A DNA stretch of 37,180 nt from a virus. Below are positions 229 through 30,373 of the stretch, piece by piece. The position numbers and the translations under genes were made by a program. The stretch spans positions 1 through 37,180 of IMG/VR virus record IMGVR_UViG_3300006737_000075; one strand, given 5' to 3'. Below the pieces are notes generated by a model, which searched no databases, was not told where the DNA came from, and worked only from the letters and a program-made list of their open reading frames with translations. How positions within the stretch are numbered: the first letter of the stretch is position 1; each line of letters opens with the position of its first letter.

Positions 229-1506
229 ATAGTTACATCGAATCCAAGCATTCCCTTCGTAAATCAATGTAGCGCGCTCTGTTGTAGCAATAGTAGCGTT
301 TAAGTCAGCCGAGTCGCCATAATTATCAAACACAACAGAACCTGCGCCCTCGTTGCATATCTCTATGATATGTCCTTCGGGGAACTTGTAATTTGCGCTT
401 CCGTCACGTTCAGGATTAAGTGTGATAGTAACACCACCGTTTGGCGAGAGCATGAAGAATGAATCACCATCAGCCGTGATAACCCATGTTCCGTTTGTCG
501 TTAGCGCGGTGCTTGTTGCATCAACACCACGACCCTGCAAACGCACAGCGTAGTGTCCCGTTTGTTCATTGTTGCGCCCTGCAAAGTAAAATGAATCAGC
601 GGCGTGTCCACCACCCCTATCAGCACCGCGCGATGGTCCTTGACCGTATCCTGCGTCGCTCGCTCCCGGTGGTGATTGGCTAAATGAACCGTAGCGCGGA
701 TGACTTACCCAATGCACGTTGATAGTGTCGGAGACTGTAAGTTCTCCGTTGTCGTTGTGAAGCGCATTAAGGTGTTCGATGGTGTTCACTCCTTCGTTGC
801 CACCGTCGTTGATTGCACCAATAGTTCCACCCGCGCCTGTTGGGTCGATAGTCCCAACAGATAGTGGCACGCGGTAATCAGCCGAGCCTTCGATAAAGAC
901 GCGCTTGTCATTGATTTCAATGATGTTTAGATTGTTCGACCCACCACCACTTGCAACGAATTGTACGCGCACAACAGCGAGAACGATGGTCTTGTCGTTA
1001 TCGTGAGTACCGCCTGTGTCATAATCAATAAGATATTGATTTGCTGCTGACGCATACAGACCTGTGGTCGTATCAACAGGACTGCCCCCTTCGTAGTGGA
1101 CTTTGTTATTACCTCCGCTTGGCGCAACAAAGATTGTGTAAATTGCTTCTTGGTTAGCGGCAAGTGTAAGCGCACCTGTTCCGTGTGAACCGTTGTTGAG
1201 GTCAAGTGTAATCGTATCACCAACACCATTCCCGAACTCATACACCGCGCCATCAAGAACGGCAAATCCACCGCTAACGGTGAGTGTGCTACTTGTGGCT
1301 TTTATCATCGAGCCGGGTTGATTACCTGTGTTTGTAGCGTTGCGCGTTGAGCCATATGCTCCGTCTTGGTATCGGAGGATTCCGTTGCCCTGCACGCCTT
1401 GAATCAGATTGGTAAGCGTTGTAGGCGACAACGAATCGCCGTCTCGTAGTCCGTCTTCACCGAGCGTATTTTGCGCGGCTGTATGCCCTGCTATGTTATC
1501 AACCAT
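1..1506 (-). CDS. Collagen-like tail fibre protein, C-terminus beyond the left edge
   Basis: The frame opens at an ATG (1504-1506) and has no stop down to base 1, so 502 residues are visible and the protein is incomplete. Residues 1-426 are rich in Gly, Asn, Thr and Asp, look beta-structured, and have no enzymatic motif that I recognise. From residue 427 the chain is an unbroken series of 25 Gly-X-Y triplets (PAG, ATG, PQG, AAG, ADG) up to the edge. Collagen-like segments of this kind form trimeric rods in phage tail fibres, so a host-contact fibre is the likely role; the receptor tip would lie off the window. The start overlaps the stop of the upstream zinc-finger gene by 8 bases (ATGGTTGA), and its GGAGG lies ten bases upstream inside that gene. 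The gene is easily missed because it has no stop in the window. Confidence 0.85.
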   Translation of the reverse strand, partial: MVDNIAGHTAAQNTLGEDGLRDGDSLSPTTLTNLIQGVQGNGILRYQDGAYGSTRNATNTGNQPGSMIKATSSTLTVSGGFAVLDGAVYEFGNGVGDTITLDLNNGSHGTGALTLAANQEAIYTIFVAPSGGNNKVHYEGGSPVDTTTGLYASAANQYLIDYDTGGTHDNDKTIVLAVVRVQFVASGGGSNNLNIIEINDKRVFIEGSADYRVPLSVGTIDPTGAGGTIGAINDGGNEGVNTIEHLNALHNDNGELTVSDTINVHWVSHPRYGSFSQSPPGASDAGYGQGPSRGADRGGGHAADSFYFAGRNNEQTGHYAVRLQGRGVDATSTALTTNGTWVITADGDSFFMLSPNGGVTITLNPERDGSANYKFPEGHIIEICNEGAGSVVFDNYGDSADLNATIATTERATLIYEGNAWIRCNYPAGATGPQGPAGPQGPAGATGAAGATGAAGAAGATGPAGPQGPAGPQGPAGATGAAGADGADGADGADGATGAAGA

Positions 1507-1526
1507 GCTTCAACAACCTCCATGCT
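1498..1526 (-). repeat. 29-base direct repeat, copy B (codes AWRLLKHG, stop and next start)
   Basis: These 29 bases appear identical to 2075-2103. Read on the minus strand they hold the last codons of the 194-residue gene (AWRLLKHG and TGA), the ATG of the fibre gene, and a GGAGG ribosome binding site formed by the Trp-Arg codons TGG AGG. One sequence thus serves as protein terminus, ribosome binding site and gene junction. Confidence 0.85.
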
Positions 1527-2083
1527 AATGTCATTGGATTACTTCTTGTGAAAAGAGGATGACTTGCGCCTGTTATGTTCAACCCCGCGTTTGTCGGTTG
1601 ACCATCTCTTTCGCGCAAATAGGTTGCGGGTAATCTGTGTCGAAGGTCAGGATGATTGAGAGGATTATTTGCTAATTCTTCTGCGGATAATTGATGTGGA
1701 ACCCTTGTTTGTTTCATAGGCGAGTCTCGTCTGAAACCCAATCTTTTTGGGTCAATAATTTGCTTTACACGCGTATGGTCTTTATCCAATACAGCGACAG
1801 GTTTGCTACCCGTTTTAGGCATTGCATTTTCAAAATCATAATCTCTTCGATGGTCTTCTTCGCGAATATCGAATTCTGTCATACCTTGCGCGCCTTTATT
1901 ATCAGCACCGGGATGATGCGTCGGTTCAAGCGTGCCTGTTCCTCGACAAGTATAACAATCGACACGGTCATCAGGACTGCCGCGCATAACACCGTCTAAG
2001 CCACCTTCATCGAAAGCACCAACTCCGTTACAATTCGGGCATTTGTATTCATCATCAAGCGGGTCTTTGAATTCATCAACCAT
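1499..2083 (-). CDS. DnaJ-type zinc-finger protein with C-terminal AWRLLK motif (194 aa)
   Basis: The N-terminus carries two CxxCxGxG modules of the kind found in the DnaJ cysteine-rich domain: CPNCNGVG from Cys15 and CYTCRGTG from Cys43. Together they can bind one zinc ion. There is no J domain, so it is not a DnaJ co-chaperone in the strict sense. The middle is polar and Asp/Arg-rich. The last residues are NPMTLAWRLLKHG, nearly identical to the end of the neighbouring 142-residue protein, so the two genes are paralogues that arose by tandem duplication. The start ATG overlaps the preceding stop by 8 bases, and GGAGG sits ten bases upstream. Its place between hub-like and fibre genes suggests a tail-tip or fibre-assembly role; this is inference. 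Confidence 0.85.
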   Translation of the reverse strand: MVDEFKDPLDDEYKCPNCNGVGAFDEGGLDGVMRGSPDDRVDCYTCRGTGTLEPTHHPGADNKGAQGMTEFDIREEDHRRDYDFENAMPKTGSKPVAVLDKDHTRVKQIIDPKRLGFRRDSPMKQTRVPHQLSAEELANNPLNHPDLRHRLPATYLRERDGQPTNAGLNITGASHPLFTRSNPMTLAWRLLKHG

Positions 2084-2103
2084 GCTTCAACAACCTCCAT
2101 GCT
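2075..2103 (-). repeat. 29-base direct repeat, copy A (codes AWRLLKHG, stop and next start)
   Basis: This is the partner of the repeat at 1498-1526, at the junction of the 142- and 194-residue zinc-finger genes. It has the same layout: C-terminal AWRLLKHG, TGA, the overlapping ATG of the next gene, and an embedded GGAGG. Flanking bases diverge quickly on the downstream side and more slowly on the AWRLLK side. Confidence 0.85.
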
Positions 2104-2504
2104 ATGTCCATCGGATTGCCCCGCCGAAAAATCTCCGCCGCAGGGTTTTTCATTGGTGTTCCTGTTCCCGCGAAAGGTGTAAAACCAAACGTCGGTTGAC
2201 CTTGTGCGTTGATTTGAGCATAAATTTTTGCGCCTTGTGGTTTTCCCACATCAAGATTAAACTTATCTCGCGCTTGTCCTAAGATACTATCCGGATGATA
2301 TTCTTTTTCGGCAACAAGTTCTCCATGCTCATGAAGGTCAAAGGGGGTTTCATCGACGGTATCGGTGTCTTCGGGATGACGCAATTCATCGGCGTGAAGA
2401 CCTGTTCCTTGACAGGTCATACAATGTATTTTGCGCCCATCGTGCATCCCATGACCGCCACTACCATCGCATTCTTCGCAAGGCATGTAATCGTCCACCA
2501 TCAT
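2076..2504 (-). CDS. DnaJ-type zinc-finger protein with C-terminal AWRLLK motif (142 aa)
   Basis: Two CxxCxGxG modules lie near the N-terminus: CEECDGSG from Cys9 and CMTCQGTG from Cys28. They form a zinc site like that of the DnaJ cysteine-rich domain. The remainder is Pro/Gly-rich, and the protein ends in NPMDIAWRLLKHG. It shares this order of parts with the 194-residue neighbour but is shorter in the middle. The start overlaps the stop of the upstream 115-residue gene (ATGA). GGAGGTG lies just upstream, better placed for the second ATG (2501) than the first, so the true start may be one codon later. A scaffold-like or assembly role at the tail tip is possible, but nothing in the sequence proves it. 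Confidence 0.85.
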   Translation of the reverse strand: MMVDDYMPCEECDGSGGHGMHDGRKIHCMTCQGTGLHADELRHPEDTDTVDETPFDLHEHGELVAEKEYHPDSILGQARDKFNLDVGKPQGAKIYAQINAQGQPTFGFTPFAGTGTPMKNPAAEIFRRGNPMDIAWRLLKHG

Positions 2505-2848: not shown

Positions 2849-4524
2849 TAAATCTTCCTCCGTATCTTACGTCCTTTCGTTGTTCTCATCTCGTGAGCGC
2901 GCGGTCGAAGCATTCGCATCTCCGCTATGGGTGAGGTTATCGCGCTCCCACTTACCAAACTTACGCCTGTAAATGTTGTGGCTGTCTTACCGCTATACGA
3001 TACAAATGATTTGTTGTCGAGGATGAGATGACCGCTATCAGCAAATCCTGTTGTGGATGCGACTGTGATGGTGCTACCTGCATGAGTGCCATTGATGCGC
3101 GGTGTAATACCAAAACCAAGTGCTGACCGACCTGCACCATATCCGCTGTTGCGATGACCCAACAACACACCTGCGTGAAGGTCGGGAGACGCGGATAAGC
3201 CAAACCTGTTTGTCTTTGTTCGTGCGAGTGTGGATACAACAGGACGAACTGTAAGCACTCCTGCTACGCGCATGTTTGCTTCGCCAACACCACTCTTGTT
3301 TATCTTCGTAATTTGAAACGACCTGTCGACTTCGTCTTCTTCTGAACTTACGTCGCCGTCGTCTCCCAAGCCTGTCAGGATGGCTTCAAGACCTGCCTCG
3401 TAAGAAATCATCTGAACGTCTGTTTCTCCTGTCGATGAATGCGTCAATTCGATAATTGCCTGTTTTACATTTCCAATTTGAGATTTGTATTCAACAATGT
3501 CTCCCGGCTCAAAATCCCACGATTGAGAATGACCTTTGGACGACAAAGCACCTTGCGCTTTTCTATTCAATCGCAACGCCTGTCCTGCTGATTTGCGCGC
3601 TTTTGATTCGTTGTTTGCAGTAGGGTCAAAGGTGGACATCTGTTTGATTGAACCGTGTTTCTTTTGCAGTTCAGCGTCATCGACCTGTGCGCTGATAACA
3701 TCGTTTACAGCAATGCCCTTTCCTTTGACAGTCATTCGATTTGCAACATCAACAACGGGGTCAATTTTGGTTTTACCTACACCGCGCTGAATACCCAACT
3801 CTCGGTCCTTAATGTTGAAAATCTTTGGCGCATAAATAAAATTGCCAAAGCGGTCGTAATACATGACATAGTGGTCGTGTCGCGCAACAGCGCGAACAGC
3901 AGTCGGTAGAACAACGGAATTGAAATTCTTAGCAACAAACAATGTGCTGACACCTTTTGTGTCGATGCTGTTCAATCCATGCAATGCTTTGTCAAACAAC
4001 TTTTCAACCAAATCTGTGCTACGCAAACCAACGCTAACTGTTTGACCCATGTAAACGTGCGACGTAGCACCCATTTGAAAGTCTGCTAACCTGCGTCCTT
4101 TCATGTTGTTCAACACAATTCTTGCGCCCTTGTTACTGCTCACAATCTTATCTGTTCTCAATCGAGTGGGTGTGTTGTCAGCATCATACAGCAACATTGG
4201 GCGAGACGACGTTGCGCTTAACTGTTCACCGTTGAAAAACGGCGCATCTTCATGTGCTGTGTGTGCTAATCGAACGCTTGATTCTTCTTCGCTAAGTCTG
4301 TATCTGCGCGCATGTGATGGTTGAAAGTCTGATTGTTTTGGTTTTTTGATTTGCACTTTCTTGCTAAGGCTTTGAGTTGTCTCGTAAACAACGTGATGAA
4401 CAGCGTTATCGACGAACACAGGCTCTTCTGCTATCGCGCCTACTTCGTCATGCAACTCGTTCATGCGACCTTTGCTTGGCGCAACGTGCGATGCGTTCGC
4501 GGGTGATGGAACGCTATACGTCAT
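2848..4524 (-). CDS. Putative baseplate hub or tail-tip protein (558 aa)
   Basis: The N-terminal 100 residues are polar and probably disordered. Residues about 150-260 include MGQTVSVGLRSTDLVEKLFD and then YYDRFGNFIYAPKIFN, a pattern reminiscent of phage hub proteins that read out a coordinate-system-like domain. A following stretch, GDIVEYKSQIG, also resembles hub C-terminal barrels. Residues about 480-530 hold a small beta module (STITVASTTGFADSGHLIL...) that resembles modules in the adaptor-like and giant proteins. The C-terminus is basic (TTKGRKIRRKI). Its start overlaps the giant gene's stop (ATGA), with a GGTGG-containing sequence upstream. Hub identity rests on position and weak motifs only. 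Confidence 0.6.
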   Translation of the reverse strand: MTYSVPSPANASHVAPSKGRMNELHDEVGAIAEEPVFVDNAVHHVVYETTQSLSKKVQIKKPKQSDFQPSHARRYRLSEEESSVRLAHTAHEDAPFFNGEQLSATSSRPMLLYDADNTPTRLRTDKIVSSNKGARIVLNNMKGRRLADFQMGATSHVYMGQTVSVGLRSTDLVEKLFDKALHGLNSIDTKGVSTLFVAKNFNSVVLPTAVRAVARHDHYVMYYDRFGNFIYAPKIFNIKDRELGIQRGVGKTKIDPVVDVANRMTVKGKGIAVNDVISAQVDDAELQKKHGSIKQMSTFDPTANNESKARKSAGQALRLNRKAQGALSSKGHSQSWDFEPGDIVEYKSQIGNVKQAIIELTHSSTGETDVQMISYEAGLEAILTGLGDDGDVSSEEDEVDRSFQITKINKSGVGEANMRVAGVLTVRPVVSTLARTKTNRFGLSASPDLHAGVLLGHRNSGYGAGRSALGFGITPRINGTHAGSTITVASTTGFADSGHLILDNKSFVSYSGKTATTFTGVSLVSGSAITSPIAEMRMLRPRAHEMRTTKGRKIRRKI

Positions 4525-7500
4525 GCTCCCACCCCATTGTCTGTTCTGTCTCCTTCGTTTGTGTGCGTGCTTGTATTCAATGAATCACCCGCATACAACT
4601 GTTGTGTGTAGCGCGGTTGCACGTTGTAGTCGAGTCGAATAAATGCGTCAGCACCATCTCTTACCGACTGACGTCGCGATGCGTCAGCCCTGAAATGTTG
4701 CGAAGTGTTGCTTGTTACAATCATGCGCGCTACTGCTTGTGTCGAAACAGTTGTAAAATCACTCGCCTCGCTTCCCGGTATTTTTGGACCAACGCTTGCA
4801 GGTGCGGCTGTGTCAGATAAGTCAAAGAGATACACAGGCGCGTAAGGAGGGTTGTTTGGAGCGGGATTTGTATTACGCATGTATGCTGATGCGGAGTCGG
4901 CGGCGCGTGCGTTTGGTGTGTCGTAAACGAATACACCGTAGCGTCCTGCGGCGGTAGCCGATAGCACATGCGAAGTATCGTCGCGGAACAACTCGACGTG
5001 TTGATTGTCAAGCACACGAACAGGACGCACAAGGAATTTGATGGTCGTGTCTTTTGCATTTGTTTTGTAGGATGTTGAATCATGAATGCTCGTCTGATAC
5101 GGATTAGTTGTAACTCCCGAAGACGCACCCCAATGATGGTCATTGATTACCTCACCGTCAGACGATACTTCCAAAACATATGTGCCGCCGATTGGTGGGA
5201 TACCATGCGTTGTTCCAAACTTCAACACCTGTTTTGCTGATGAGAAATTAAGCGTGTGAAGATTGAGATTATCAACCGCGCGATTTGCTGTGCTGACGCC
5301 ACCTGCGAGAATAAATCGTTGACCAATTTGTTTGTCTGTGTGTAGGCTGTGCGCTTCTGTGCTTGCAACAGCGTAGTTTGGTGCAACTTCACCATCATTT
5401 TCTCCAACAGTCATCGCGTCTAAACCAATACGCGGTTTTGATTTTGCAATTGGTTCTTGCATAAATGTGAAATTTGATTTCTCAATGTTTGTTCCAATAT
5501 GCGCTTCTCGTTTTAATAGACCGTCTGAACCTGCGAGTTCCAATCGTGCGCTGATTCCTCTTGGCATTTCATGAGATTCCAATTGAACGTTTGAAGGTCG
5601 AATAAATCCGCTTGTAAATGGAGGCTCGCTTGTATGATGCGACAGCACCAAACCAAACGGACGTATATCTTCAGATACATTTTGCAATCTGTCTTCGTTA
5701 AAGTATGTTGGATAGCGCACACCGCGCCCATCTCCCCTATCACCAACTCGCTTTGCAGTAGCAGGGTCGAAGAAATTGACCGATGCTTCCGCTGTTCGTA
5801 GCCCTGCGTCCGAATACATTGACTCGGCACTCTTGGTTCGGTCGGTTGCGCGATACGCGTCTTCAGGGTCCCACGATGGTCGAATACCAAAACCGCGCAC
5901 AGGGAAACGACGAACCTCTTCGCCAGTTGTATTGCCCCACCAGTCAATCATGTAGTGTGCTTGAGCAAGCGCAAGATTAACTCGTTGTTGCAAAACGTTG
6001 GTGTTGGCTTTGTATCCTGCGGGAGTGTCAGCGTGAAACTTACGAAGCGTATGTGTGTTATTGATAATGTTGCGCACCGCGCACCCAAACCCTTTGGTCA
6101 TACGACGACCATCGCTGTATCGTACTTGTTGAAATTTAAGGTCGCTTCCAATAAGCGCGGATGCATTGGTTTGACGTTCAATAATTCCAACGTATGCAGG
6201 ATTGACCGTCGACGTAGGCGTTGATGTTGAACTGCCTGTTTGCGTCGTCGTCGTCATTGTAGCACTTTCGCTGCTGACAAACGCACCTTCGGCTTGATAA
6301 TGGAAATGAGCATGTGGGTCGCGCAATGCTTGGTTTGATTTGATAGCCCAACGCGGTCGATTGTATGGTTGTCGAACTGATACGCGGTATCCCCATCCTT
6401 GATTTTTATATGTGCTTGCAACGCCGTTAATGGTTTCAGTCAGCGTTTCAACGTTGCCGTTGGTGACAGTTAATCCTTTCGCGTCAGATACTTGTTTGAT
6501 GTTGGGGTCGTCCCACTTGTTACGCCATCCCGGTGCGGCAGTCCCATACAACGACAATGAACTCATTTGCGCGCCAAAGCGATGACCACCCGGCCAAAAT
6601 GCACCAAGATGGAATTTCTTCGGTGACGTCTGACTGTCTGTTCCTGCTTGGTTTGGATAATTTGAATCGGGGTATGTGTCGGTCAAATCGTCACCCGGTC
6701 CTTCCCACGTCTTCATTCGGAATTTGAATGGACCATCGCTCATCGCGTATGTGAATTCATGATAGTGCATGGTCTCAAAATGTTCAGGCGCATGATTGTA
6801 TGCTTTCAAATCAACTGCCGCATCACCCTTAGCAGTTCGACTATCTGAAAACCATGTCATCGGACGACCAACGTTGTAATGCCACATACACAAATATGCG
6901 TCAGGTATATGCAAAGAATTTGTATCGCGCGTTCCTGAATGCAATTGCAACAAATTTCTTGTGGCTACACTCGCTTCCGAGTTTTTGTAAACAACGTTTG
7001 GTTGGAATGTGTTAAAAGGAGAGGATAATCGAACTGTCGCGCCTTCAACAGCCGCCGCCCAAAACCCGCTTGTTACAGCAGTTACGGTATTGAAAACAAC
7101 TGTTGAACCACTTCCTGTTTGACTGATGTGTCCTCTATCGTGATATGTTGCTGTCTGTTCGACGCCGTTAGCATCAACAATAACCAAGTGGTGATTATAA
7201 TAATCGACGCCGACCATCGGGAATAGCGAATTGTTACGAACAAAAAGTTTACTTGCGCCTTGATTGCCATACTCAACAATAGCAGTTGGTGTCAGCGCGG
7301 TCAAATATTCTGTGTAAACATCAAGATAGTGCGACGGGTATCCAAGCATTGTCGTTTGAGTTCCTACACCGCCAAGTGTTGAGCGACAGAAATGATAGTA
7401 GTCGTCAGGCTGATATTGGTCAATACGTTTCCAATTATTCGGTGTTGTAAAAATTGTTGAAGACTTGAGAGCAGCAGACCACCACGCGACAGTTACAGTA

Positions 7501-10500
7501 TTTGCAGGTGTGGCTCGATGAAACATGTTTGGATGATATGGTAGACTGCGTCGTGTAAATGCTCCTGACGACGACGCGTTGACACCGAAGGGGTTGTTAA
7601 GACCAAGCATAGGTATGTTGGTAAATTGTTCACGCGTTGATGGGTCAATGTCCAACATAACTTCGTTGAGATATATTTCACATCCGCGCGTGTCAGCCAT
7701 CGTCGCTTCTGACAAAATAAGGTCGCGACCCTGCATGGCTACAACCGTAACAACAAGTTGGTCGGTAAGTGTGCGCACCGTTGTGTTTGTTCCGCTTGGG
7801 TCTTCAGGCGCGTCGTTTGACACAAATGCTGTATTCTCGTTGTTCCCCATGAACTGTTTACTAAACAGGTTTGGCTGAATGACAATTTGATACGCGCCAA
7901 CTTCGGCAGGGTCAGGGAAGTGCCATTGAGTGTTGTAATTTGTTCCGCTTTCAAGTTGAATACGATGACCACCTGCGGCGTTACACGACGCGCTATCGTC
8001 AGCGATACCATACCCGTCAAAGCGTATTTTTGTTTCAGTCAAGAGCGTAAACCCATCGCCGTGTATATCGCTTGGAGGGTGAGGCGCGGTCGTTCCTGAA
8101 AACCACAAAAGAGGATTATGAATTGTTTTTGCTGTATCGAAGTCCGTAGCACCAAAACAAGCGCGCCCTGATGCGTTTAACTTTTGATATATAGGGTGAG
8201 CAAGATGACCCGGCATCATCGCCATTGTTGGCATAACGTAGTGATGACCCATGCGCGGTAACGGCATAGGTGTTAATTTGTTTGCAGCGCGCACTAACGT
8301 AGCAGGATTTGTTCCTGCTGATAACGTTGTCCAATTAGTCAAAGGCTTGTCGGGACTGTTACCACTTACTTCTGCATGGTCACGCAACCGTCGCGCAGCA
8401 AACTGTCGTGTTGAACCTGCGGGTATGTAGAATGACGGTTTGATAGCGTCGTCTTCTTTGGCTGTAAAGTCGGGTGCGAACGTAACGCCGACAAACTGTG
8501 TTCCGCCATCGGGCGCATCTGTGAATGATGCAATTGTGCCGTTGACTGACAAGAAGTAGCGTCCATCAGGTGTCGGGTCTTGTTTCCAAATGTCAGCAAC
8601 GATAGCCTCTTTGGTCGTAATTGTATTTGTTCCAATATCGTCAACTGTAAGACGGTTGAGTGTCATAGCGTTGTTGACAATACTCAATGGCTCGCGCTCG
8701 GTGTAAGTGTAACCCATCTTGGTAATGTGGAAATACAATGCGCGGTCGTGGGGTTCGTATGCCGTTTCAAGTATATTGCGCGATTGAAGATTGTTGTTGC
8801 TGTCAGGGAAGTTGTTTGGGTTCTGATTGATGTGTTCGTAGCCTTCTTGTTCCCAACGAGGTGCAGTCTTTGGTCGTCCTGCGTCAGACTCAAACGTGTC
8901 GATAACACCTTGAATAGGTTGACTCGGATGTTGCAATCCGCCACCACCAAGCGTTTCGTGTTGATAGGCTTGTAAACGGTCAAAACCTGCGCGGACAAGG
9001 ATGTTTCCGGGTATTTCATCGTGATTCGGCAACTGAATCTTCATGTTTGGTTGCACACCTGAACCTGCAAGTGCAGGTGCGAGTCCTTCGTTTTCGCGGT
9101 CATGTTGTAATTCGTAGTCGCGAATAACAACACCAAGCGGAGAACCGCCCTCAAGCGTGTGTTCTTGACCTGTATCATCGACAACAATTATACTTTCAAA
9201 TTGCATTTCTTCGTTCGGTATGGTAAGTGCGTTGCGCACTTCATATCCAAATTGTTCAGCAAGAGCAGGATGAGCCAACTCCTGTGCTTGAATAACAGGA
9301 TACATTGCAGCGTTAGTTGTTTCAAACGAAAAGCGAACGTTTCCATAAATTGTTTCGCCAAATTTAACGTAAGCATCTCCAACTTTGTGAACAGCAAAAG
9401 GTACTGACCCAAGACCGCGCGCGTTTTGAGCAGGTAATGTGAGGTTTCCACCACCCATTCGCTTCCATACAACGTGTTCAACAAAGAAGTTTCTTGCCGC
9501 GCTACGTTCTTTCCAGTATGTGTTAATGCCGTCGCGATGCGCTGAGTAATCGCTATACCCTGTCATTTCGACTTTGGCAGTTTCAGCATCAAACAAATTA
9601 TCGTTTGGATACAACGCATTGTTTGGATTTTCTTGTTTGTCGAAAAACAAATCGCCTGTTGGAAACAAACACGTTTCACCCTGCGTAATACTTGAAGACG
9701 CTGATGTTGTCCATAGTGGTGATGCGTCTGTTGGTCGAGTCATCGTTGTATCATACATCGCTTCAACGTGTGGTCCCGCATTTGATTCAGCATTGTATCG
9801 GTCGTTGTTGAATCGCTCGTTATGATATGTGGTTACGGTTCCTCCTTGCGTTCCGCCCCATTTTAACTGCAACATATCTCCACCTGCTTTCTGTCCGTTA
9901 CGCGAGGCTTTTGCAATAATTGGCAAATCGCCTTCATAAGAAATAACAATAAAATGACGCTGATGCAAACCTGTTGCTTCGTGTAATGTTGTTTTAGGTG
10001 TCCATGTATATTCAGAACCATCAACATCGTTCGCTTCAACTATCCATTTAATTGAAGATGGTTGATGACAACCAAGACCTGCACCATACGGACTGAACCC
10101 TAACATCGGATGCCAAGCACCAAGACCTGCGCTTACGCGATTGTCTCCTGAATCAACAACGGCAAGGCTGTTAAGATAAGAATAACGCTCACCATGCCAA
10201 CCAACAGCCCCAACCGCGCGCGTTCTATCAATTGCATCTGTCACACCGCTAAAATGCACTTGTGTTGTTGCGTAATGGTCGAATGGACTGTTTGACATTT
10301 GACCTGACGTTGTTGCACCTGTTTCACGCGCCCCTGCTGAAATTGCTTGAAATCCATTATCCCATCGAAGATTACCTGCTTTTGACCAAACGAAAACTTT
10401 GTGACCTGTTCCTACGACACTGGACACATCACCTGTTCCGGACAACGCACCCTCTTCTAATCGCTTAGTTCCACTACGGAAATTGTCTCCAAGAACAAAA

Positions 10501-16500: not shown

Positions 16501-19500
16501 CTCACGGTGCTTCGTATTGGCAAGTTGTTTATCAGACGATACTGATACTGACCAAATGCTTCGTAATCGTTTGCAGGATTGTTAAGTGCGCGACGTCCGA
16601 CAGGCGAAGGATTCCATGCTTGCGCGGTCATAGTTGCATCAAAGTGTAATTTCATGCTGTTGTCAGGAGATGGGAAAATGCCACTTTCGCGGTCTTCAAA
16701 AAATTGTTGAGGAAACAAAGGTATCTCGACAAGTGCGCGCGTGCTTGCATATTGCGTTCCGAGTTGGTAATCGTGTTGCACAGAGCCAAGCGATTGAAAC
16801 AATCGGTCATTGATGGTCGTTCCATCAGAACAAATAGATGATGAATCAAACAACGGGTCAAGAGTTAATGTATCTCCAACAGCGATTTGACTTTGTGTAA
16901 TCCAACTGCTGAACGTTAGGGTCTCTCTTCCGTTACCAAGAAGAAACGTATTGGTCCCTGAACTTGACGAACTTAAACATTGAAAATACGTTCCTGTTCT
17001 GCTTGTGTATGCGATACTCGCGCCATTAGAAAGGTACAATCGACCCGATGCAGGGAAGCCGTATGTAGCCCATGATGAAAGAGAAGAAGAAGCGTTGTTC
17101 AATGCTTGAACAGTTATGCGATGATTAGTCGTATCTAAATCTTGAGCCTGTGTAGCGTGGTCGTGGCGAGTGTTCCAACCAACGCGCGATAATGTAGCAG
17201 GGTCCCATGTTGGTTTTGTGTTGATAGCACCTTGACCTGCACCCCCAAGCGTGACGGATACCACAGGCGCGCCGGGTTGAATTTCTTTGACGATGTGCGA
17301 ATCAGGACTCCCATCGCCTGTGTATGCGATGGTTTGGTCAGCAACGTCATCCATCAGTCCTTTACCTTCCATTGTGATTATTCGACCCATTCCTCCATCG
17401 TTGATTTGCATTGAATTGATACGACAGACCGATTGAACAAATTCCAATGTGAAGAACGTTGGGTCATTCGCGTCGAGTGATGTTGGCGTCGTTCGTACCA
17501 ACTGCATTGTTCGTTCGCGCTTGCTTGGTTGGATAATGATAAGATTGTTTGGTCCATCCACATCGTTGTCGATGACATCAAACATCTCAAACGCACCACC
17601 TTTTTGCGATGCGAACTGTTTACTCTCTTGATAGTGAATTGGTATCTCATCAACAGGAGGATTACTTGAACTGCGCTTTCGTGGTTGTAAATGCAATTTG
17701 TGATACACCGATGGGTGTGATTGTGTTCCAACCCCTTGTGGAGGCTTAGAAGGTTCATCACCTGTCGCTCGCGGAGCGTAGTTAGTCGGTATTAAAGATT
17801 CATTCAAATCTTCGTCGTGGTCAATACCGCCTGTGTTGTCTCCAACCAAGTAATGGGGCGCGAGAACAATACTTCCGTCACCACCAACATAACTTGACGG
17901 GAATTGAATGATACCGCCGGGCGCGTGAATGTTCGCGTTAGCCGCTATCGCATCAGCGATATGTTCGGCAACACGCTTACTGTTGATGAAAGACCCACCA
18001 TCAGGAACAGTCTTTGTAATCAGCAAAGCAGGGTCACTCAATCCCATCTTACCACCTGTAAGGTCGACAGCGTTGTAGTGAATCTCAACGTATCCTGCGG
18101 TGATGCCTGACACTTCAAGTATGGCTACGCGCGATTCTGTTTCAGGAGTCAAGTGTTTTTTGTATGCACTATCGTCTGTGGAGGTAACGCCGATGCCACC
18201 ACCCTTCAACAGAAACGGTCGTATGTCATCAACCGATATTGCAATGACACCGTCGCGATGAGCGTCAATACTTGCCAAACCATTTCTTGTTATTCCTTTT
18301 GTTATTGTTTTGGTAATAATTTGAGAAAAGCGAGAATTCATAGCGGTGTGTGTGATTTCGACTTTGCTGTTGATTGGCAACTGTTCTTTCAATCCGATGT
18401 AAGAACCCGCGAAAGATACCAATACGTCATCTGAAATACCGTCAATGGTTCGCGTAATTTCTTGGGTTGTAATAGGTGGTAAGAGGCGCAAGTAAGGATG
18501 TCCTAACCTATGAGTGTATTTGTGTCGCCCTGTGTGTCCAATCTTGAATCTGTCGTCGATTGTCCAACTGCTCGGAGAAAAGTTATTGCCTGTTTGCAAG
18601 TTGCGCGAAAACATAAATCCGTGAAAATCGTATCCACTTTCGTCAATAACCATCGCACCTGTTCGGTCAATGGCTTGACTGCCTGTTCCTAATCTTTGAT
18701 GTGGTTTACCTGTCATACTGTCGATAAGCAAATCAGAACGTATCAGAACCATTGTTGAATCGTTTGCGAGATTGTTTGATGAGTTGAATGCTGTGCGCGA
18801 ATGAAGAACACCTCGCAAACCTGTGTCAGGTGTTGTAGCGAAGTCGAGGTGGATGCTGTCGACGGTGATTGTTCCGTTGGTGTTGATGGCTTTGAGTCTG
18901 ACACGTTCGGGTGCAGTTCCGTTTGGTATCCCTGTAAGTATGTCTGTGCCTGTTGGGTTGATGAGAATATTGAACGATGTGTGTGCAACGCTGATAACTT
19001 GTGCGCCACCGCTGTGAGCGGCATTAGCGACGCGATAGTTGCCAAGACTTTCAAGTGTGTAGTTTGACGAAAGCGTATCGCTCTTACCGCTCACAAGTTC
19101 ATACAACGTCTGACATTGGTCCGCGCCTATTGTAATAGCGGTGTCACCTGCTGTTACGTTTGATGTAATTTTCAACGTGACATCGTCGACATCGACAGGC
19201 TCTTCAAAACGCCAAAGTCCAATGGTACTTCCTGAACGTATGCATGGTTCAGCACGCATAGCACTTGACGATACATCTCGCTTCCAATGGACAGATTCGA
19301 TGTAGCCACGATACTCACCACCTTGACCACCGATGAATAAATCGCGGTCGTTGATGTTGCATTGGTATCGCTTGTTCATTTTCTCGGATGCCATCAACTC
19401 TCCGTTGATATACAATTTGACCTGATTGCCTGTGAAATGCCCTGCGATGTGATACAATTCGCGCTGTCCTGTGTTGTAATCAACGTTGTTCGCAACAAAT

Positions 19501-19880: not shown

Positions 19881-19881
19881 A

Positions 19882-21075: not shown

Positions 21076-22787
21076 ACTGCTGACCTCCTGTTCCCACCTG
21101 AACGGCCACCGCGAGCCATTTCAGCGCGAATCAAATCTCCAATTTCTTTCGCCAACTGCTTCTTATCGGTTCGGTCTGTAACACCACCGACGTTGATGTT
21201 TACTGTAACACCACCACCGCCACCCAAACCAATACCTTGCGGGTTGTTTTTTCTGCTAAGAGGGACAACTGCTTCGGGTCCATCCTCACCAATCATGGCA
21301 AGCGTTGGGCTGTTGACAACACCACCTTTCGCGAGCATAGGAACTGTCGGCAATTTGAACGTTTTACCTCCGACAACAGGAACCCAATTAGGAATGTCAA
21401 ACTTCATCTTCCTTGCAAACTTATTGTAAATACCCATGACGGCATTGAACACTGATTTGAAACCTTTCACGAATCCATTTTTGATAGTCTTCGGTATGCT
21501 TAAGAACCAATCAATAAGAGAGCCACCGCCGAAGATAACATCTTCGGCAAATGACGCTCCTATGTCAAACAACGCTGTGAATATACCTACAACCAACCCT
21601 ATGACTAAACTAATCGCGCCTGTAAGAAGAGCAACGATTCCACCAAAGAGCATACCTAATCCTGCTAACGCGCCATAAAAAATGGTCGCACCCCATTCAA
21701 AAATAAACGTCATCACGCCTCCTAAGAATGCTACAATTTGGTCCCAATACTTGATGATGATTGCGATAATGAAAATGATACCTGCCGCGATTGCTACGGG
21801 AATTGTTGCACCAAAAGCCAAAACCAACGCGCCATAAATAAGTAACGTTCCTACGATACCGATAACCCAATCAATAAATGTATCTCCTGTTCCTTGAACA
21901 AACAACCAAAGCGCGGCAATACCACCGGTAAGCAAGCCAAGCGCGAGAAGAACAACTCCAACAAGTGCCATTGTCGATGCAATCGCTGACGTCGCCGCCA
22001 CACCGAATGTGAATTTCAGATACAAAACCGCACCTGCGAACACCAAAAAGGTCGCAGTCGCCGCCGCAATTGCCAACTCCATACTGCCTGTTTCGTTTTG
22101 AACAAGTTGAAAAACACCAACAGTCGCTGTCAGTATTCCTAACGTTATCGCGACAGTTCCGCTGAAGAATACGAACGCGGCGGCGGTGACGAGGACTGAG
22201 GCGGCGAGAATGTCGAACAACGCCGCCAACCCTTCTTCATCACCCTCGCCTGACAATATCAACACAAGACCCTGAACCGCGTCATGAACGAAGCCCATAT
22301 TTTCCGTGAAACCAAGAAGAGGTGTATTCGCGCCATCAAAGGCTATGGATAACGCGGCAAGCGCGAAACCAACAATGAGGAATATCGAAATAAGAGAAAA
22401 CACGCGCGTAGCAAGACGAGTAAAGATGTTATTTGACTTAGCCAATATCTTGTTGTTCATCTTGGCAACTCCGCCAAACATCATCTTTTGCGCGATTAAC
22501 TTTTGAAGAAGCGTCATTTTGCCGTCCAACGTTTCATTCTCTTTGTCGGTCATCGCTGAATGATTTGCAATCTTTTTCGTGACGTTGCTGATTGATGAAG
22601 CGAATCCTGCGAGCGAGCGAAGAATCCCTGTAATAGGGCTTTTTTGCATTGCCGTACTCAATTTCATTTGTTGCTTTTCAAGAATACCCATCTTCTTTGA
22701 AGCGTTAAGACTGACGACACCTGCTTGTTCCAACTGTTGAATAACCTTCTCGGTTACAGTCGCGACGTCAGCCAAATCTCCTGCCAT
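21072..22787 (-). CDS. Tail tape measure protein (about 571 aa)
   Basis: The C-terminal part has the typical end of tape measure proteins: LAKGGVVNSPTLAMIGEDG followed by PEAVVPLSR near residues 495-520, then a Gly-rich linker (GLGGGGGVTVNINVGG). The centre (about 130-430) is a long run of hydrophobic, membrane-like helices, as usual for this family; the N-terminus is helical and polar. The protein sets tail length; at roughly 1.5 angstroms per residue the tail would be near 85 nm. An in-frame GTG lies three codons earlier at 22796, but the ATG at 22785-22787 has the better-placed GGGTGG, so I chose it. It follows the chaperone frameshift product almost without a gap. Confidence 0.9.
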   Translation of the reverse strand: MAGDLADVATVTEKVIQQLEQAGVVSLNASKKMGILEKQQMKLSTAMQKSPITGILRSLAGFASSISNVTKKIANHSAMTDKENETLDGKMTLLQKLIAQKMMFGGVAKMNNKILAKSNNIFTRLATRVFSLISIFLIVGFALAALSIAFDGANTPLLGFTENMGFVHDAVQGLVLILSGEGDEEGLAALFDILAASVLVTAAAFVFFSGTVAITLGILTATVGVFQLVQNETGSMELAIAAATATFLVFAGAVLYLKFTFGVAATSAIASTMALVGVVLLALGLLTGGIAALWLFVQGTGDTFIDWVIGIVGTLLIYGALVLAFGATIPVAIAAGIIFIIAIIIKYWDQIVAFLGGVMTFIFEWGATIFYGALAGLGMLFGGIVALLTGAISLVIGLVVGIFTALFDIGASFAEDVIFGGGSLIDWFLSIPKTIKNGFVKGFKSVFNAVMGIYNKFARKMKFDIPNWVPVVGGKTFKLPTVPMLAKGGVVNSPTLAMIGEDGPEAVVPLSRKNNPQGIGLGGGGGVTVNINVGGVTDRTDKKQLAKEIGDLIRAEMARGGRSGGNRRSAV

Positions 22788-22789
22788 TC

Positions 22790-23436
22790 TTACCACCCTT
22801 CGCTGTGAGGCATCGGTCCATGTGTTGAACCTACGCGACGCTTGCTTTTCGCACCATCGCTCGCTTTCTTAATCTCTTCGGCCTTCAATTGTTCAGCCGC
22901 ACTCGCCCAAATGAATGATTTTTCAAATGCGCTTATGTTCATATCCCATACCTCTTGTAAACTCAACCCATAATGTTTCGCGACAAAATATGCCGCCGAA
23001 TCAAACATCATGTCTGTCGCTTCGGGCTTTGGATTCTTGAAGAAGTCAACCGCTTCTCCTATTCCGTCAGCCCATCCGCTAAAGGGTTCGCCATCAAGTC
23101 GTGAGGTTGAGGAAGAAGAGCGATAATCTGTTGAGCGACGAAAGGTCTCAACGACAACATTTGCGGAATGGTCAGGCGCGGTTCAGTCTTTTCAATGGCT
23201 TCTGCGAACATATACTTCCAATATGCCGCCAAGTCAATATCGACTGTTGCGTTCGATTTAATGGAGACAAACGATTTAACTGCGTCTTGAAGTTGCATGA
23301 AGGATAATTCCCTCACCCACACTTTCATTACAGCGTTATCATCGTCTTCATTTACTTGTATTTCATGCTCCGTCGCTTGACTGTTCACCAACAGGCTCGT
23401 CAAGTCCGCTATCGTTTTCGTGGTCATTTTCATCAC
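22790..23436 (-). CDS. Tail assembly chaperone, long G-T form made by -1 frameshift
   Basis: Ribosomes slipping back one base at CCCTTTA (23080-23086) would leave the 125-residue frame and continue to the stop at 22790-22792. This adds about 98 residues, beginning FSGWADGIGEAVDFFKNPKP after the shared start and ending GPMPHSEGW. The extension frame is closed by a TGA a few codons upstream of the slippery site, so it cannot be reached without the slip in that region; a smaller ATG-started frame (23011) also exists inside it. This is the same layout as lambda G/GT, where the minor long form recruits the tube protein to the tape measure. The tape measure gene follows at once. Confidence 0.75.
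23059..23436 (-). CDS. Tail assembly chaperone, short G form (125 aa)
   Basis: The mostly helical protein carries RELSFMQLQDAVKSF near residues 43-57, YWKYMFAEAIEKTEP and QMLSLRPFVAQQI, a pattern common to the short tail assembly chaperones encoded before tape measure genes. The start is uncertain: ATGs occur at 23436, 23433 and 23427, with no strong ribosome binding site, and the gene overlaps the upstream SAP-domain gene by 74 bases, so translation may be coupled. The stop TAG (23059-23061) lies 18 bases beyond the slippery heptamer. The protein is expected to bind the tape measure during assembly and not to be in the finished virion. Confidence 0.75.
   Translation of the reverse strand: MMKMTTKTIADLTSLLVNSQATEHEIQVNEDDDNAVMKVWVRELSFMQLQDAVKSFVSIKSNATVDIDLAAYWKYMFAEAIEKTEPRLTIPQMLSLRPFVAQQIIALLPQPHDLMANPLADGLTE
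23080..23086 (-). other. Programmed -1 frameshift site CCCTTTA
   Basis: Read on the minus strand, C CCT TTA fits the X XXY YYZ slippery pattern in the chaperone frame (codons Pro-Leu, re-paired as Pro-Phe). The -1 frame has a TGA a few codons upstream and then stays open for about 98 codons, and the zero frame stops six codons after the heptamer. I did not work out a downstream stimulatory hairpin. Confidence 0.8.
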
Positions 23437-23776
23437 TTACTGTTTTTTCTTCGCTTGTCGCGGCCTCTTCGGAGGGAGCGACTTCTTCCACTTCAACTGC
23501 CTCTTCGGAGGGGGTATCGGCTTCAATAAGGCGAGCGATGAGTTCCGCCTTTGTTCCTGTGACAGGAAGACTGCGCGCTCGTAGGAGTGCTTTGAGTTCT
23601 TCAACAGTCATGGAGTCGTAATCTGTTCCTTGTAATTGGTCAGGGAATGGATTGCCGTCAGTCTTTGCGGCTTCGGGATTGAAGATTTCTTCTTCAACAG
23701 GTTCAGCGATAACTGCGGTTTCAGTTACAGCGCGAATACGCAATGGTCGTTCATCGCCTAAGTGCATACTCTTCAT
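23363..23776 (-). CDS. SAP-domain acidic protein (about 137 aa)
   Basis: Counting from the GTG at 23785, a SAP-like helix-turn-helix lies near residues 58-91: YDSMTVEELKALLRARSLPV, then TGTKAELIARLIEAD. SAP domains usually bind DNA but also occur in phage structural and assembly proteins. The C-terminal third is strongly acidic and probably disordered (Glu/Ser/Asp-rich). The upstream GTG (23785) gives three more residues; I prefer the ATG at 23774-23776 because it makes the TGATG overlap seen at other junctions here. A later ATG (23767) is also possible. It sits between a Cys-rich protein and the tail chaperone, so a tail-assembly role is likely but unproven. Confidence 0.75.
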   Translation of the reverse strand: MKSMHLGDERPLRIRAVTETAVIAEPVEEEIFNPEAAKTDGNPFPDQLQGTDYDSMTVEELKALLRARSLPVTGTKAELIARLIEADTPSEEAVEVEEVAPSEEAATSEEKTVSDENDHENDSGLDEPVGEQSSDGA

Positions 23777-24666
23777 CAAGCACACGACCCTTTATCCATA
23801 CATTCAGCACACTTTTTCTTGCCGCAATCATCGCAACATTTTTTGCATGACCCGCTTTTTCCGCAATCATCGCACACTCTCTCATCTTTCATGAAATACC
23901 ATGCGTCGCGTATTGCCATAGGCATACCTGTTTTCACACCCATACCTCGCAAAGTCTGTTTGAATTGTGGGTTCACTTGGTCGAAAGCACCCATGCCTTG
24001 AGGCATACCTGCGGGTCCCATCTTTGGTTGGCGATTCATAAAGCGTCCGTAATCTTTGCTTTGGAAACCGCTTGTTTGCGCCCCCACTCCACCTGCTGCT
24101 TGACGACTTAAATCATCAACTCGACCGACAGTTGGTCGCGGTACTGCTTGAACTTGTTGTCCAACGTCGTTAATCCTTGCACCAAAGTGTGAAGAATAAT
24201 TGTCTTCAACATCCGCGCCCATATCTCCTACTTCTTCGTCATCATCAGGGTCAATTACGGTTGGTGTGTTCCTTCTGCGTCCGGCCACTCTGTTGCCAGT
24301 TCTCTCATTATACCCTCTAAACGGACGCGTTTCGTCCTGCATATGACGCCCTCTTGATTGTTGCTTGCCTTGTTGGTCATTACGCCTATCATCATCTTGA
24401 TAGAAATTACCGGGTTCCATCCCTTCTTCACCTGCGTCAGCACCTTCGCCTTGTAAGCGAGCAACGGGCATTCCATATCGGTCGCCCCTTCTGTTTATAT
24501 TTACAGGTCTTGATTGTTGAATAGCGCGCGGAACAGAAGTTGGCACATCGTCGGGGTTTAATCCTTTGACACCAAACCTCTGTCTATCGCGGTCGTTTAT
24601 ATTAGTGTTAATTCTAAATTCTTCGTCGCCTTTCAGTAATCCCCATGCATCATTCATTATGTTCAT
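23776..24666 (-). CDS. Cys-rich protein with AWxLLK motifs at both ends (about 296 aa)
   Basis: I chose the ATG at 24664-24666 because GAGGTGA is five bases upstream; a GTG three codons earlier (24675) would overlap that site. The N-terminus reads MNIMNDAWGLLKGDEEF. Residues about 20-250 are Arg/Gln/Gly/Asp-rich and look disordered. Near the C-terminus a second copy, PMAIRDAWYFMKDERV, leads directly into a block with at least four CxxC-like pairs (CDDCGKSGSC, CCDDCGKKKC, AECMDKGSC), which should bind zinc. The gene follows the tail tube gene after four bases. No known family comes to mind. The disordered middle between two copies of one motif suggests a linker or scaffold that bridges two partners. 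Confidence 0.8.
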   Translation of the reverse strand: MNIMNDAWGLLKGDEEFRINTNINDRDRQRFGVKGLNPDDVPTSVPRAIQQSRPVNINRRGDRYGMPVARLQGEGADAGEEGMEPGNFYQDDDRRNDQQGKQQSRGRHMQDETRPFRGYNERTGNRVAGRRRNTPTVIDPDDDEEVGDMGADVEDNYSSHFGARINDVGQQVQAVPRPTVGRVDDLSRQAAGGVGAQTSGFQSKDYGRFMNRQPKMGPAGMPQGMGAFDQVNPQFKQTLRGMGVKTGMPMAIRDAWYFMKDERVCDDCGKSGSCKKCCDDCGKKKCAECMDKGSCA

Positions 24667-24676
24667 TTTGTTCACC

Positions 24677-26608: not shown

Positions 26609-26628
26609 ATTAAACAGTCCGCCTTACC

Positions 26629-27069
26629 TTACGCGATGAGTTCCGAGAAGATAACGATTTCGACCTGAAAGGTCATACGATGTAATCTTTTTGTTCGGTC
26701 TGACAAGTCAGTCCGTTGTTTGTATAACAAGCGGTCGAAGTTCGCGCCGTCTCCTTTTCGTTTGCTGTGAACAATGCGTCGTATCTCATCCTCAATTTTC
26801 ATGAGTTGAGTTCGTCCTCTCATTGTTCGCGCATCAACAGTAACGTTAATTCGTGTGTGGACAAAGTCGTAAAACACTTCAGGTTGCTCTTCGTTGTGAA
26901 CAGTCTCATACAAAAGAATCGCGTCTTTACTTGTCAAATCAAGACGCTTACCACGACCTGCCTCGATTGTTGTAATGTCTTCGACAATTGGCGTTCGTTG
27001 GTTCGTGTTGCCACGATTCCAATTATCCGAGAGGATTTTCTTGATGAGTTCAACGGATTCAAGAGCCAA
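26629..27069 (-). CDS. Tail terminator-like protein (146 aa)
   Basis: The start must be TTG (27067-27069): a TGA lies directly before it in frame, and GGAGG lies seven bases upstream. The protein has a helical N-terminus (ALESVELIKKILSDNW), then strands around FYDFVHTRINVTVDARTMRG, a basic helix (IEDEIRRIVHSKRKG) and a closing strand RMTFQVEIVIFSELI. This alpha/beta pattern resembles tail completion or terminator proteins that cap the tail tube beneath the neck. It overlaps the upstream gene by 11 bases. Position and fold pattern agree, but no diagnostic residue is known to me. Confidence 0.65.
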   Translation of the reverse strand: MALESVELIKKILSDNWNRGNTNQRTPIVEDITTIEAGRGKRLDLTSKDAILLYETVHNEEQPEVFYDFVHTRINVTVDARTMRGRTQLMKIEDEIRRIVHSKRKGDGANFDRLLYKQRTDLSDRTKRLHRMTFQVEIVIFSELIA

Positions 27070-27331
27070 TCAAATCCCTCCCAATCGGTGATTCTGACCG
27101 CGCCTGTTTCTTTGCGGCTTCGACGATGTTCTTGTATTCAGGGTCTTTCTCGCTCATGATTGTGCCATCTTCCTTGATGATTTGATTGTCGCTATTAACC
27201 GCCGCTCCGTAATCAAGAGCCGCCGCATCAAGAAAGATTCTCCCCTTGTCTGTAAAGATGCTTGCTTCGCGCACCTTCGGAAGGTCTTCACGGAGAGCAT
27301 CCGTAAGTGCTTTCTTGAAGGCTTCTTTCAT
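27059..27331 (-). CDS. Small neck protein, unrecognised (90 aa)
   Basis: The protein begins with an amphipathic helix (KEAFKKALTDALREDLPKV), continues with FTDKGRIFLDAAALDYGAAV and ends in a charged helix with SESPIGRDLIGS. It starts one base after the adaptor-like gene's stop and overlaps the terminator-like gene. Its position is that of head-closure or neck proteins, but I do not recognise a family. Confidence 0.65.
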   Translation of the reverse strand: MKEAFKKALTDALREDLPKVREASIFTDKGRIFLDAAALDYGAAVNSDNQIIKEDGTIMSEKDPEYKNIVEAAKKQARSESPIGRDLIGS

Positions 27332-27332
27332 A

Positions 27333-28913
27333 TCACAACACCGTCATAACTTCTGTATAGCGCGGTAGTGTTTCAGCCACCTGCGCTTTGAACAATTGGT
27401 ATTTGCTTCCCAAGTCCACGTTCTGTGTTCCTTCGGGCAACAGCACGCTACGGTCGTCAGACAGAATCAAATCCATCGCGACCAACTTCGTGCATACATC
27501 TTCGATGGCCTTTTCGACGTATCGCTCACCGTAAACATAGGACACCTTGACAGCGTTCCATGAGAAGTAAGGATAGGAGTTGTTGAAATAAATGACACCC
27601 AATTCGTAATCAGCCCACCAATCGCGAAGACGTGCTTCGTCACCTGTGGTCGTGCCGACGTAGTCAATCTTGAACTTCTTCTGATTGAGTGATGCACCGT
27701 TGGTTGCCGCCGCGCTAATATCACCTACGAGGTCTACGACACCATTGAGTGTTGTTCCTGTGATACTGGTGTAGTATCCGTATGTTGCGCCTATGTTGAT
27801 GATTCCGTATGGTGCGAGTCCTGCGACACTCGCAACCGTGATACTTGTCGCTGTTGAAGAAGATACAGTCGTCGTCGTATCGGTCGCTCCTGTAAACGTC
27901 ACACCGCTTGATGTGCAAGCATATGTCGCGTTCTCACCTGCTTCACCACGACGCATAGAGGTAATCTTGACTTGACCACCACCATAGTCAGCGTTTGCGG
28001 AAGCCATGAATTCGTGATGCACGTTGGCTGTAATCGTCCCATCTATTTCTGTCACGTCTTCAAAGACGAAAGATGGACTGAACAATGTCGCTGATTTACC
28101 TTTGCGCGCATCTTTGTTAATAACGTCGGCCAATTGCTGTGCTGTGCTAACATTGTCGAATTGCGCTCGGAACTTTGATGACCCATCACCTGCTGTGAGT
28201 GTCGCGACACCACCCCCACCGGGACATAAGAAGACTTTATCGGTATCAGCCGTGATTTGAGTGAAGTCGTTAATTTTCAATCGGATTTCAGCCGCCGCAA
28301 TTTCGCGATAGTCAGCACCCTGCCATATCTCAAGGCGAAGAATTTGTTGCGCGTTGCGGAACATCAACGGAACAGAACCAACGTAATCGGTATAGTATCG
28401 TCGTCGGTATGGTTTGTATGTGTCGAAGTTGAGGTATTCAGCAGTCTGCAACATAGGTCGCCATGAGTTGTTTGTGAGGTTGTCAATCTTATCTTGTGTG
28501 CGGAGAATGAGCGTTTCAACCTGTGCTTTCGTGACACCCTTACGTTTCCCATTGGTAAACGATTGAAGGTTTTGAATTTCTGCGTTTTGCGCTGTTGTGT
28601 ATGTTCCTGTCAGCGCGCCCGTAAATGACAAACGGACGTTGCCTGATGCGCGAGCAACGGCTGTAATCGTTCGCTCTTCGCCCATTTCAGCGTCGCTTGT
28701 AATTTCGATTTTATCTCCCACTTCAAAACCAACCAATCGGTAATCAGCAGGGCTGATGTCGACGTGCGTCGAACCATCATCGAGTGCTAAGAAAACAGGG
28801 TCAGGGAATGGGATTTGAAGAATGTCAGCAACCTTCTGTGCCGACGTGTAGTAAAGTCTGTCGGGAAAGAGGGGGCGACCTTCGCGCTCACCTGTTTGAA
28901 ATACGGTTGGCAT
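27333..28913 (-). CDS. Head-tail adaptor-like protein with inserted beta domains (526 aa)
   Basis: The first 60 residues include SAQKVADILQIPFPDPVFLA. A helix follows near 125-150 (VTKAQVETLILRTQDKIDNL), and a C-terminal helical part reads YVEKAIEDVCTKLVAMDLIL with DDRSVLLPEG after it. Helices at both ends with a long beta-rich middle suggest a head-tail adaptor enlarged by inserted domains. The middle contains a module near 345-400 (SITVASVAGLAPYGIINIGA...) resembling ones in the hub-like and giant proteins. The ATG overlaps the preceding stop (TGATG), with GAGGGATG upstream. The adaptor call comes mainly from gene order. Confidence 0.55.
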   Translation of the reverse strand: MPTVFQTGEREGRPLFPDRLYYTSAQKVADILQIPFPDPVFLALDDGSTHVDISPADYRLVGFEVGDKIEITSDAEMGEERTITAVARASGNVRLSFTGALTGTYTTAQNAEIQNLQSFTNGKRKGVTKAQVETLILRTQDKIDNLTNNSWRPMLQTAEYLNFDTYKPYRRRYYTDYVGSVPLMFRNAQQILRLEIWQGADYREIAAAEIRLKINDFTQITADTDKVFLCPGGGGVATLTAGDGSSKFRAQFDNVSTAQQLADVINKDARKGKSATLFSPSFVFEDVTEIDGTITANVHHEFMASANADYGGGQVKITSMRRGEAGENATYACTSSGVTFTGATDTTTTVSSSTATSITVASVAGLAPYGIINIGATYGYYTSITGTTLNGVVDLVGDISAAATNGASLNQKKFKIDYVGTTTGDEARLRDWWADYELGVIYFNNSYPYFSWNAVKVSYVYGERYVEKAIEDVCTKLVAMDLILSDDRSVLLPEGTQNVDLGSKYQLFKAQVAETLPRYTEVMTVL

Positions 28914-29275
28914 CAGTCATCCCTCTCACGCATTCTTTCAACTACTCTCATTACACTCTTTTTTGTCCTTCTTGGATAATGTCCATGCGTGTTGTAGTAT
29001 TCAAACACCGCTTGTCTGTAATCCTTAATTCGGGGTTTTCCTTCTCTTTTCAAATTGAGTATGTTCCGTTCTTGTTCTTCTTTCGCTCGTTTAGCGTCAA
29101 GTTGTTGTTGAAGCGGTGTCACTATCTGTCGTCTTTGTTGCTCGGCTTGACGCTGTTCGTTGAGGCGAGCCTCCTGTTGCTTCATCTCTTCCATCATTTG
29201 CCTATGCTCCGCGAAAGCAGGGTCATCATCGCCCATGTTCTTGAGCAATCGCCAAGCCTTCTCAAACGGATTCAT
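28913..29275 (-). CDS. Charged coiled-coil protein with N-terminal AWRLLK motif (120 aa)
   Basis: The protein starts MNPFEKAWRLLKNMGDDD, the same motif that ends the two zinc-finger proteins near the other end of the window. Residues about 22-75 are a Gln/Glu/Arg-rich helix likely to form a coiled coil. The C-terminus is basic (PRRTKKSVMRVVERMRERDD). It overlaps its upstream gene at TGATG, with GAGGTGG just before the ATG. The combination of a short linear motif and a coiled coil suggests an assembly or tether protein at the neck; this is inference. Confidence 0.8.
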   Translation of the reverse strand: MNPFEKAWRLLKNMGDDDPAFAEHRQMMEEMKQQEARLNEQRQAEQQRRQIVTPLQQQLDAKRAKEEQERNILNLKREGKPRIKDYRQAVFEYYNTHGHYPRRTKKSVMRVVERMRERDD

Positions 29276-30363: not shown

Positions 30364-30373
30364 AAGAAACACC

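Follow-up and report, generated by a model that had tools for sequence, protein, structure and literature searches.

A short peptide motif shared by diverse late accessory proteins of magrovirus-like viruses: a candidate docking helix for virion cargo

Diverse accessory proteins of magrovirus-like viruses carry a short peptide with the consensus [GS/M]-[E/N]-P-M-[D/N/E]-x-A-W-x-L-L-K, which we interpret, with moderate confidence, as a docking helix that serves these viruses as a cargo address for virion loading and delivery to the next cell. The docking or targeting behavior that a first-pass annotation of a single sequence had suspected is well supported, the motif being modular, borne by late genes, helical in both predicted models, and located, across 82 otherwise unrelated carrier clusters, at protein ends or where domains meet. 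It is specific to one virus group, its carriers are encoded on the late strand and are accessory in nature, and some of them harbor effector-type domains. AWRLLK is not mentioned in the full text of open-licence papers, and the motif appears to be undescribed so far, although the kind of system, a docking or targeting peptide, is known.

The sequence in which the motif was noticed (the window, that is, the whole stretch of DNA analyzed) is a virus record of 37,180 bp with nearly all of its coding on the minus strand (Table 1). Its major capsid protein (MCP) is 82-100% identical to marine viral contigs (80 listed) and about 33% identical to Druskaviridae, and the related records, with lengths of up to 109 kb, contain oppositely oriented modules in a two-strand layout. 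Such a size and two-strand layout are known from magroviruses (PMC12999244), a group of tailed viruses that infect Marine Group II archaea and have been found by metagenomics only; their hosts are among the most abundant archaea of the surface ocean (PMC12999244, PMC10160649). From its MCP identity and from the size and two-strand layout of its relatives, the window appears to represent a magrovirus-like archaeal tailed virus.

Other features of the window include, on the minus strand, a tail protein (positions 1-1506) that contains collagen-like GxxGxx repeats and runs past the window end, and a single 5119-aa protein (4521-19880) that takes up 41% of the window. Directly downstream of p299, p140 (23363-23785, minus strand) clearly matches the SAP domain (PF02037, E 1e-15), an unusual nucleic-acid-binding domain for a tail module, and p128 (29986-30372) gave a weak SAP-like (Ish1) match. 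Three magrovirus genomes, G001 (33734-35230), G023 (34962-36461), and G028 (22754-24307), have thermosome-like chaperonin genes, recognized by eye, on their early strand. A hydroxymethylglutaryl-CoA lyase-type gene (YEVGPRDGLQ, also by eye) lies amid the motif genes of several magroviruses without itself carrying the motif (L035:8703-9545, L055:5064-5921, L103:7674-8537, and L008:10269-11108).

Table 1. Motif copies, their carriers, and two head genes in the window
Feature	Coordinates	Strand	Remarks
Motif copy 1, NPMTLAWRLLKHG	1502..1540	-	C-terminal 13 residues of p194
p194	1499..2083	-	N-terminal zinc-knuckle (DnaJ/anti-TRAP-like CxxC pairs), C-terminal motif; Pfam matches weak, below cut-off
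Motif copy 2, NPMDIAWRLLKHG	2079..2117	-	C-terminal 13 residues of p142
p142	2076..2504	-	Zinc-knuckle protein; C-terminus related to that of p194
p299	23776..24675	-	Accessory, flanked by tail-tube-like p643 and SAP-domain p140; one motif copy towards each end
Motif copy 4, PMAIRDAWYFMKD	23884..23922	-	Near the p299 C-terminus (aa 252-264), ahead of a Cys-rich tail
Motif copy 3, MNIMNDAWGLLKG	24628..24666	-	N-terminus of p299
p120	28913..29275	-	Accessory charged protein upstream of head-tail-connector-like p526
Motif copy 5, MNPFEKAWRLLKN	29237..29275	-	N-terminus of p120
Major capsid protein (MCP)	31012..32157	-	Marks the late strand; places the virus among magrovirus/Druskaviridae-like viruses
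Prohead protease	32157..33581	-	Candidate processing enzyme or partner

The five copies in four proteins reported by the first-pass annotation are all in frame and had been placed correctly, and a six-frame scan of the window revealed no further copy of the motif. The N-terminal and near-end copies of p299 had also been recognized rightly, the length of 296 aa given for their carrier corresponding to the same ORF read from an internal ATG instead of the 299 aa used here. The 12,322 aa of window proteins contain five matches to AW.[LIVMF][LIVMF][KR] and four to AW.LLK, against 0.08 and 0.01, respectively, expected from residue shuffles. The carriers had been described as otherwise different, which holds in general, but p194 and p142 are partly dependent on each other: their last 34-41 residues align with 46% identity (BLASTP), and both start with DnaJ/anti-TRAP-like zinc knuckles (weak Pfam matches). 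The p194 relatives in L010, L101, and L108 form one mutual cluster that retains the C-terminal motif, copy 4 of p299 is retained in relatives as PMAMNHAWSI(L/I/V)K, and at the position of p120 the motif is present in 29 of 57 distinct proteins of the relatives.

As a safeguard against the bias of loci picked by the motif, 80 loci picked by capsid protein served as a motif-independent sample. These loci yielded 74 motif hits, 61 of them at most 25 residues from a terminus, compared to 0 for the reversed motif. Twenty of the 22 records reached through capsid loci contain a narrow DNA pattern of the motif (55 matches vs. 1 for its reverse), the other two carrying the close variants AWTVLK and AWKVLK, and a motif profile gave 135 hits in 12 near-complete genomes vs. 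3 in reversed sequences. A large excess of the motif was found in the related contigs, where the first-pass annotation had recommended searching for it. Neither of the two outcomes that it had named as refuting, no such excess or one homologous domain behind all copies, was observed. At least 209 distinct carriers were found across related records (all loci pooled), and clustering of their motif-masked sequences at E<1e-3 gave 82 clusters, a handful being chance matches in unrelated contigs. This diversity argues against the motif being a piece of a single domain, and for selection on the peptide and not on the domain. In a MAFFT alignment of 145 carriers the mean identity was 3% and the consensus was essentially MxPMxxAWxLLK.

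The strict pattern [NKDE]PMxxAWRLLK, searched at the DNA level, occurs in 46 stretches among viral contigs, nearly all of them magroviruses. Across 84,980 cellular species genomes (257 Gb) it has three matches, each inside a longer ORF but in another reading frame and together about as many as expected by chance, and a host-wide signal was rejected on these grounds. Among the matches listed, 106 of 134 motif-picked viral loci resemble magrovirus references in further genes; the remainder are short pieces of magrovirus-type contigs or chance matches (about two dozen). The late half of HVTV-1, a virus with a related capsid protein, contains no convincing copy and one unrelated AWVVVR.

In the 10 genomes with a located MCP, 110 of 114 profile hits fall on the MCP (late) strand and 4 on the other, a split that speaks for late expression of the carriers; the carrier at 13602-14432 of G023 is on the late strand, yet inside the early region. 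The median number of genomes with a homologue is 2 of 12 for the carriers and 10 of 12 for other late genes, and the carriers are accessory genes. The idea that the motif marks structural genes was not borne out, as the tested homologues of MCP and TerL lack it, also in their surroundings, and its carriers are preferentially accessory and cargo-like. An exception is a conserved late protein near the terminase (GSDTRxYNPRSES), which carries variant copies of the motif. This variant reads SEPMDxAWSxLLK, with one inserted residue (L225:14133-16376, L258:3-1001, L246:3-2594, and L266:13964-15847).

Copies are mainly, not solely, N-terminal (181 N-terminal, 144 internal, and 30 C-terminal), so that a location at or near a terminus, as first noted, describes the five copies of the window but not all those of the relatives, many of which stand between domains. 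For the N-terminal form, the start lies six residues behind Met in 37 of 54 cluster representatives. A single protein may hold up to eight copies, domains alternating with motifs, the eight-copy protein being L052:1-3618 (1205 aa, 5' end missing). The same domain appears as Met-motif-domain when alone and as (G/S)EPM-motif-domain within arrays, and internal copies show an extra upstream preference, [IVFK]-x-[TAKM]-[GS]-E, ahead of PM. The motif lies directly upstream of the domain core in 14 of 22 ADP-ribosyltransferase (ART), 5 of 7 ParB-like, 12 of 29 SPEA-type, and 8 of 12 KRGPM-type hits. A position downstream of these cores is rare.

Domain matches of the carriers in Pfam, PHROGs, and NCBIfam are NUDIX, HD, RelA/SpoT-type, GNAT, ParB-like, DUF5872, DUF6321, and zinc-knuckle, mostly in single members, and the majority of carriers have no recognizable domain. 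The GNAT and ParB/Srx-like domains in arrays were assigned from weak or sequence-motif evidence, and the ART from its fold, in a single-domain carrier. A motif-bearing protein of 571 aa (L055:2765-4480) contains a zincin-like HELGH, as in polyvalent-protein metallopeptidases. Several cargo-type domains are present in magroviruses with no motif nearby, and related domains in four bacteriophages (cyanophages, a roseophage) have no motif either; they are encoded by small genes that lack the tag and mostly lie amid structural genes or genes of the tail region. The untagged bacteriophage domains suggest that the motif is the magroviruses' own addition, and its being an integral piece of each domain was rejected because the domains occur without it.

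The ART assignment comes from the family of L014:1906-2379 and its 18 relatives, which have an N-terminal motif. The predicted model (pLDDT 78) matched Tpt1/KptA best (Z 10.5, 83 residues, 2.3 A) and then other enzymes of the ART superfamily, with a best Foldseek E of 1.1e-3, and an ADP-ribosyltransferase fold is predicted for the family. The motif (residues 4-13) forms a separate helix in this model, outside the matched region (residues 31-135). The model of L014:2386-2847 (pLDDT 67) had sulfiredoxin as its best Foldseek match (E 0.86), so that its ParB/Srx assignment is weak; the motif is again helical there (residues 4-12), with low local confidence. With a hydrophobic moment of 0.52, compared to 0.33 for shuffles, the motif is predicted to be a short amphipathic helix standing alone. 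At the nucleotide level synonymous choice is free for Leu+3 and Lys, and individual copies are very different in their DNA. With one copy counted per cluster, the second Leu of the motif shows a preference for CTC/TTG over TTA/CTT (p=3e-8). A DNA-level element was rejected, the codons being variable and the bias mild.

Late accessory enzymes would hardly be useful to a cell near lysis, which suggests that the carriers act in the next cell, and action there would require packaging. A packaging receptor could be expected to read just such a peptide, short, helical, amphipathic, and transferable, and together with the precedents of T4 and of polyvalent proteins this favors a cargo address. Packaging, receptor, and delivery are what we infer: late in infection, accessory proteins would be made with the motif at the N-terminus, at the C-terminus, or between domains, and would bind through it to one common viral receptor, probably the prohead scaffold or protease, the capsid interior, or the portal region. 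The bound carriers would be built into the virion and would enter the next host cell together with the DNA. Against a cargo address, one copy per polypeptide should do, whereas the arrays have one per domain, which may mean processing or gene fusion; the core late protein with GSDTR...NPRSES and variant copies indicates that some carriers are not free cargo; and neither the cargo-type domains without a nearby motif nor the many carriers without a recognizable domain fit easily. A broader version, in which the peptide is a general cargo code of the Magrovirales, a tag that any late accessory domain could acquire, with each array module tagged and perhaps singly released, is put forward more tentatively.

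The repeated copies in arrays keep in play a processing signal, in which the motif would be a junction at which the prohead protease or some other protease splits the arrays, and terminal copies would be leftovers of fused or split genes. The alternation of motif and domain up to eight times, the upstream preference at internal copies, the occurrence of one domain both alone and in arrays, and the zincin motif on some carriers agree with such cleavage. However, the conserved residues (A, W, L, L, K) are those of a helix and do not center on a scissile bond, a cut at an extreme-terminal motif on a single-domain protein would free merely a short peptide, and the upstream preference is weak and may stem from shared ancestry of the linkers. 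We consider processing unlikely, and compatible with a cargo address. Unlikely, too, is docking to a host factor, whereby the peptide would bind some protein of the Poseidoniales host late in infection and so locate or stabilize viral proteins there. Short amphipathic terminal helices are typical of docking motifs and the virus group appears to have one host order in common (PMC12999244), but the 84,980 cellular species genomes scanned contain no in-frame strict motif and hence no sign of host use, and the opposite-strand (early) proteins of the same viruses are essentially devoid of it. Specificity for the late genes of one virus group makes a host partner less likely.

Docking for assembly at the tail, at the baseplate, or on the surface of the virion, instead of in the capsid interior, would fit p194 and p142, which adjoin a tail-fibre-like gene, and p299, which adjoins tail genes; in other magroviruses the carriers cluster upstream of the terminase, distant from tail genes, and several are enzymes and not structural proteins, which leaves this explanation improbable. 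It is highly improbable that the DNA of the motif serves as a junction for recombination or gene fusion, that it shuffles domains, and that the peptide has no function: domains are indeed shuffled around the motif and the second Leu has its mild codon bias, but the free synonymous variation and divergent DNA of the copies speak against it, and standalone genes, which have nothing to shuffle, still hold the peptide six residues after Met. Chance or one homologous domain, to which the C-terminal region common to p194 and p142 might point, is refuted by the 82 motif-masked clusters and by shuffled and reversed controls near zero.

If the tag marks virion cargo, the proteins probably carried into the host could be read from sequence alone, ADP-ribosyltransferase-like, NUDIX, and SpoT-like enzymes among them, and the peptide and its receptor would constitute a defined pair with which proteins could be loaded into an HK97-type shell. 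If the broader cargo code also holds, these archaeal viruses would possess a modular protein-delivery system, and the motif would be a search key for the injected proteins of uncultured viruses.

Encapsulin cargo-loading peptides are short terminal peptides that dock enzymes to an HK97-fold shell. They resemble the magrovirus motif, here a putative docking peptide, in being short and terminal, and they differ in serving cellular compartments and in the peptide itself. Polyvalent proteins of phages and conjugative elements, as excerpted from Iyer et al. 2017, comprise arrays of ART, GNAT, ParB/Srx-like, RelA/SpoT, and zincin domains encoded near late genes and are thought to be packaged (PMC5512222). 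The magrovirus arrays, which join several modules, would be alike if the weakly assigned GNAT and ParB/Srx-like domains in them hold, and are unlike in that their modules are separated by the motif, no shared docking peptide being mentioned in that excerpt (PMC5512222). In T4, the capsid targeting sequence (CTS) is the one common feature of the internal proteins, which are diverse, late, packaged, and injected, counter-defence proteins included (PMC3012670). Unlike the CTS, the magrovirus motif also occurs C-terminally and many-fold within one protein, its viruses infect archaea, and packaging is a prediction here. On the other hand, both are short peptides common to otherwise unrelated late proteins, a likeness drawn from their description. 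A T4-type CTS would also be cleaved by the prohead protease, and the window contains a prohead protease gene. T4 Alt, according to the same excerpt a packaged ART (PMC5512222), would have its counterpart in the carrier with a predicted ART fold.
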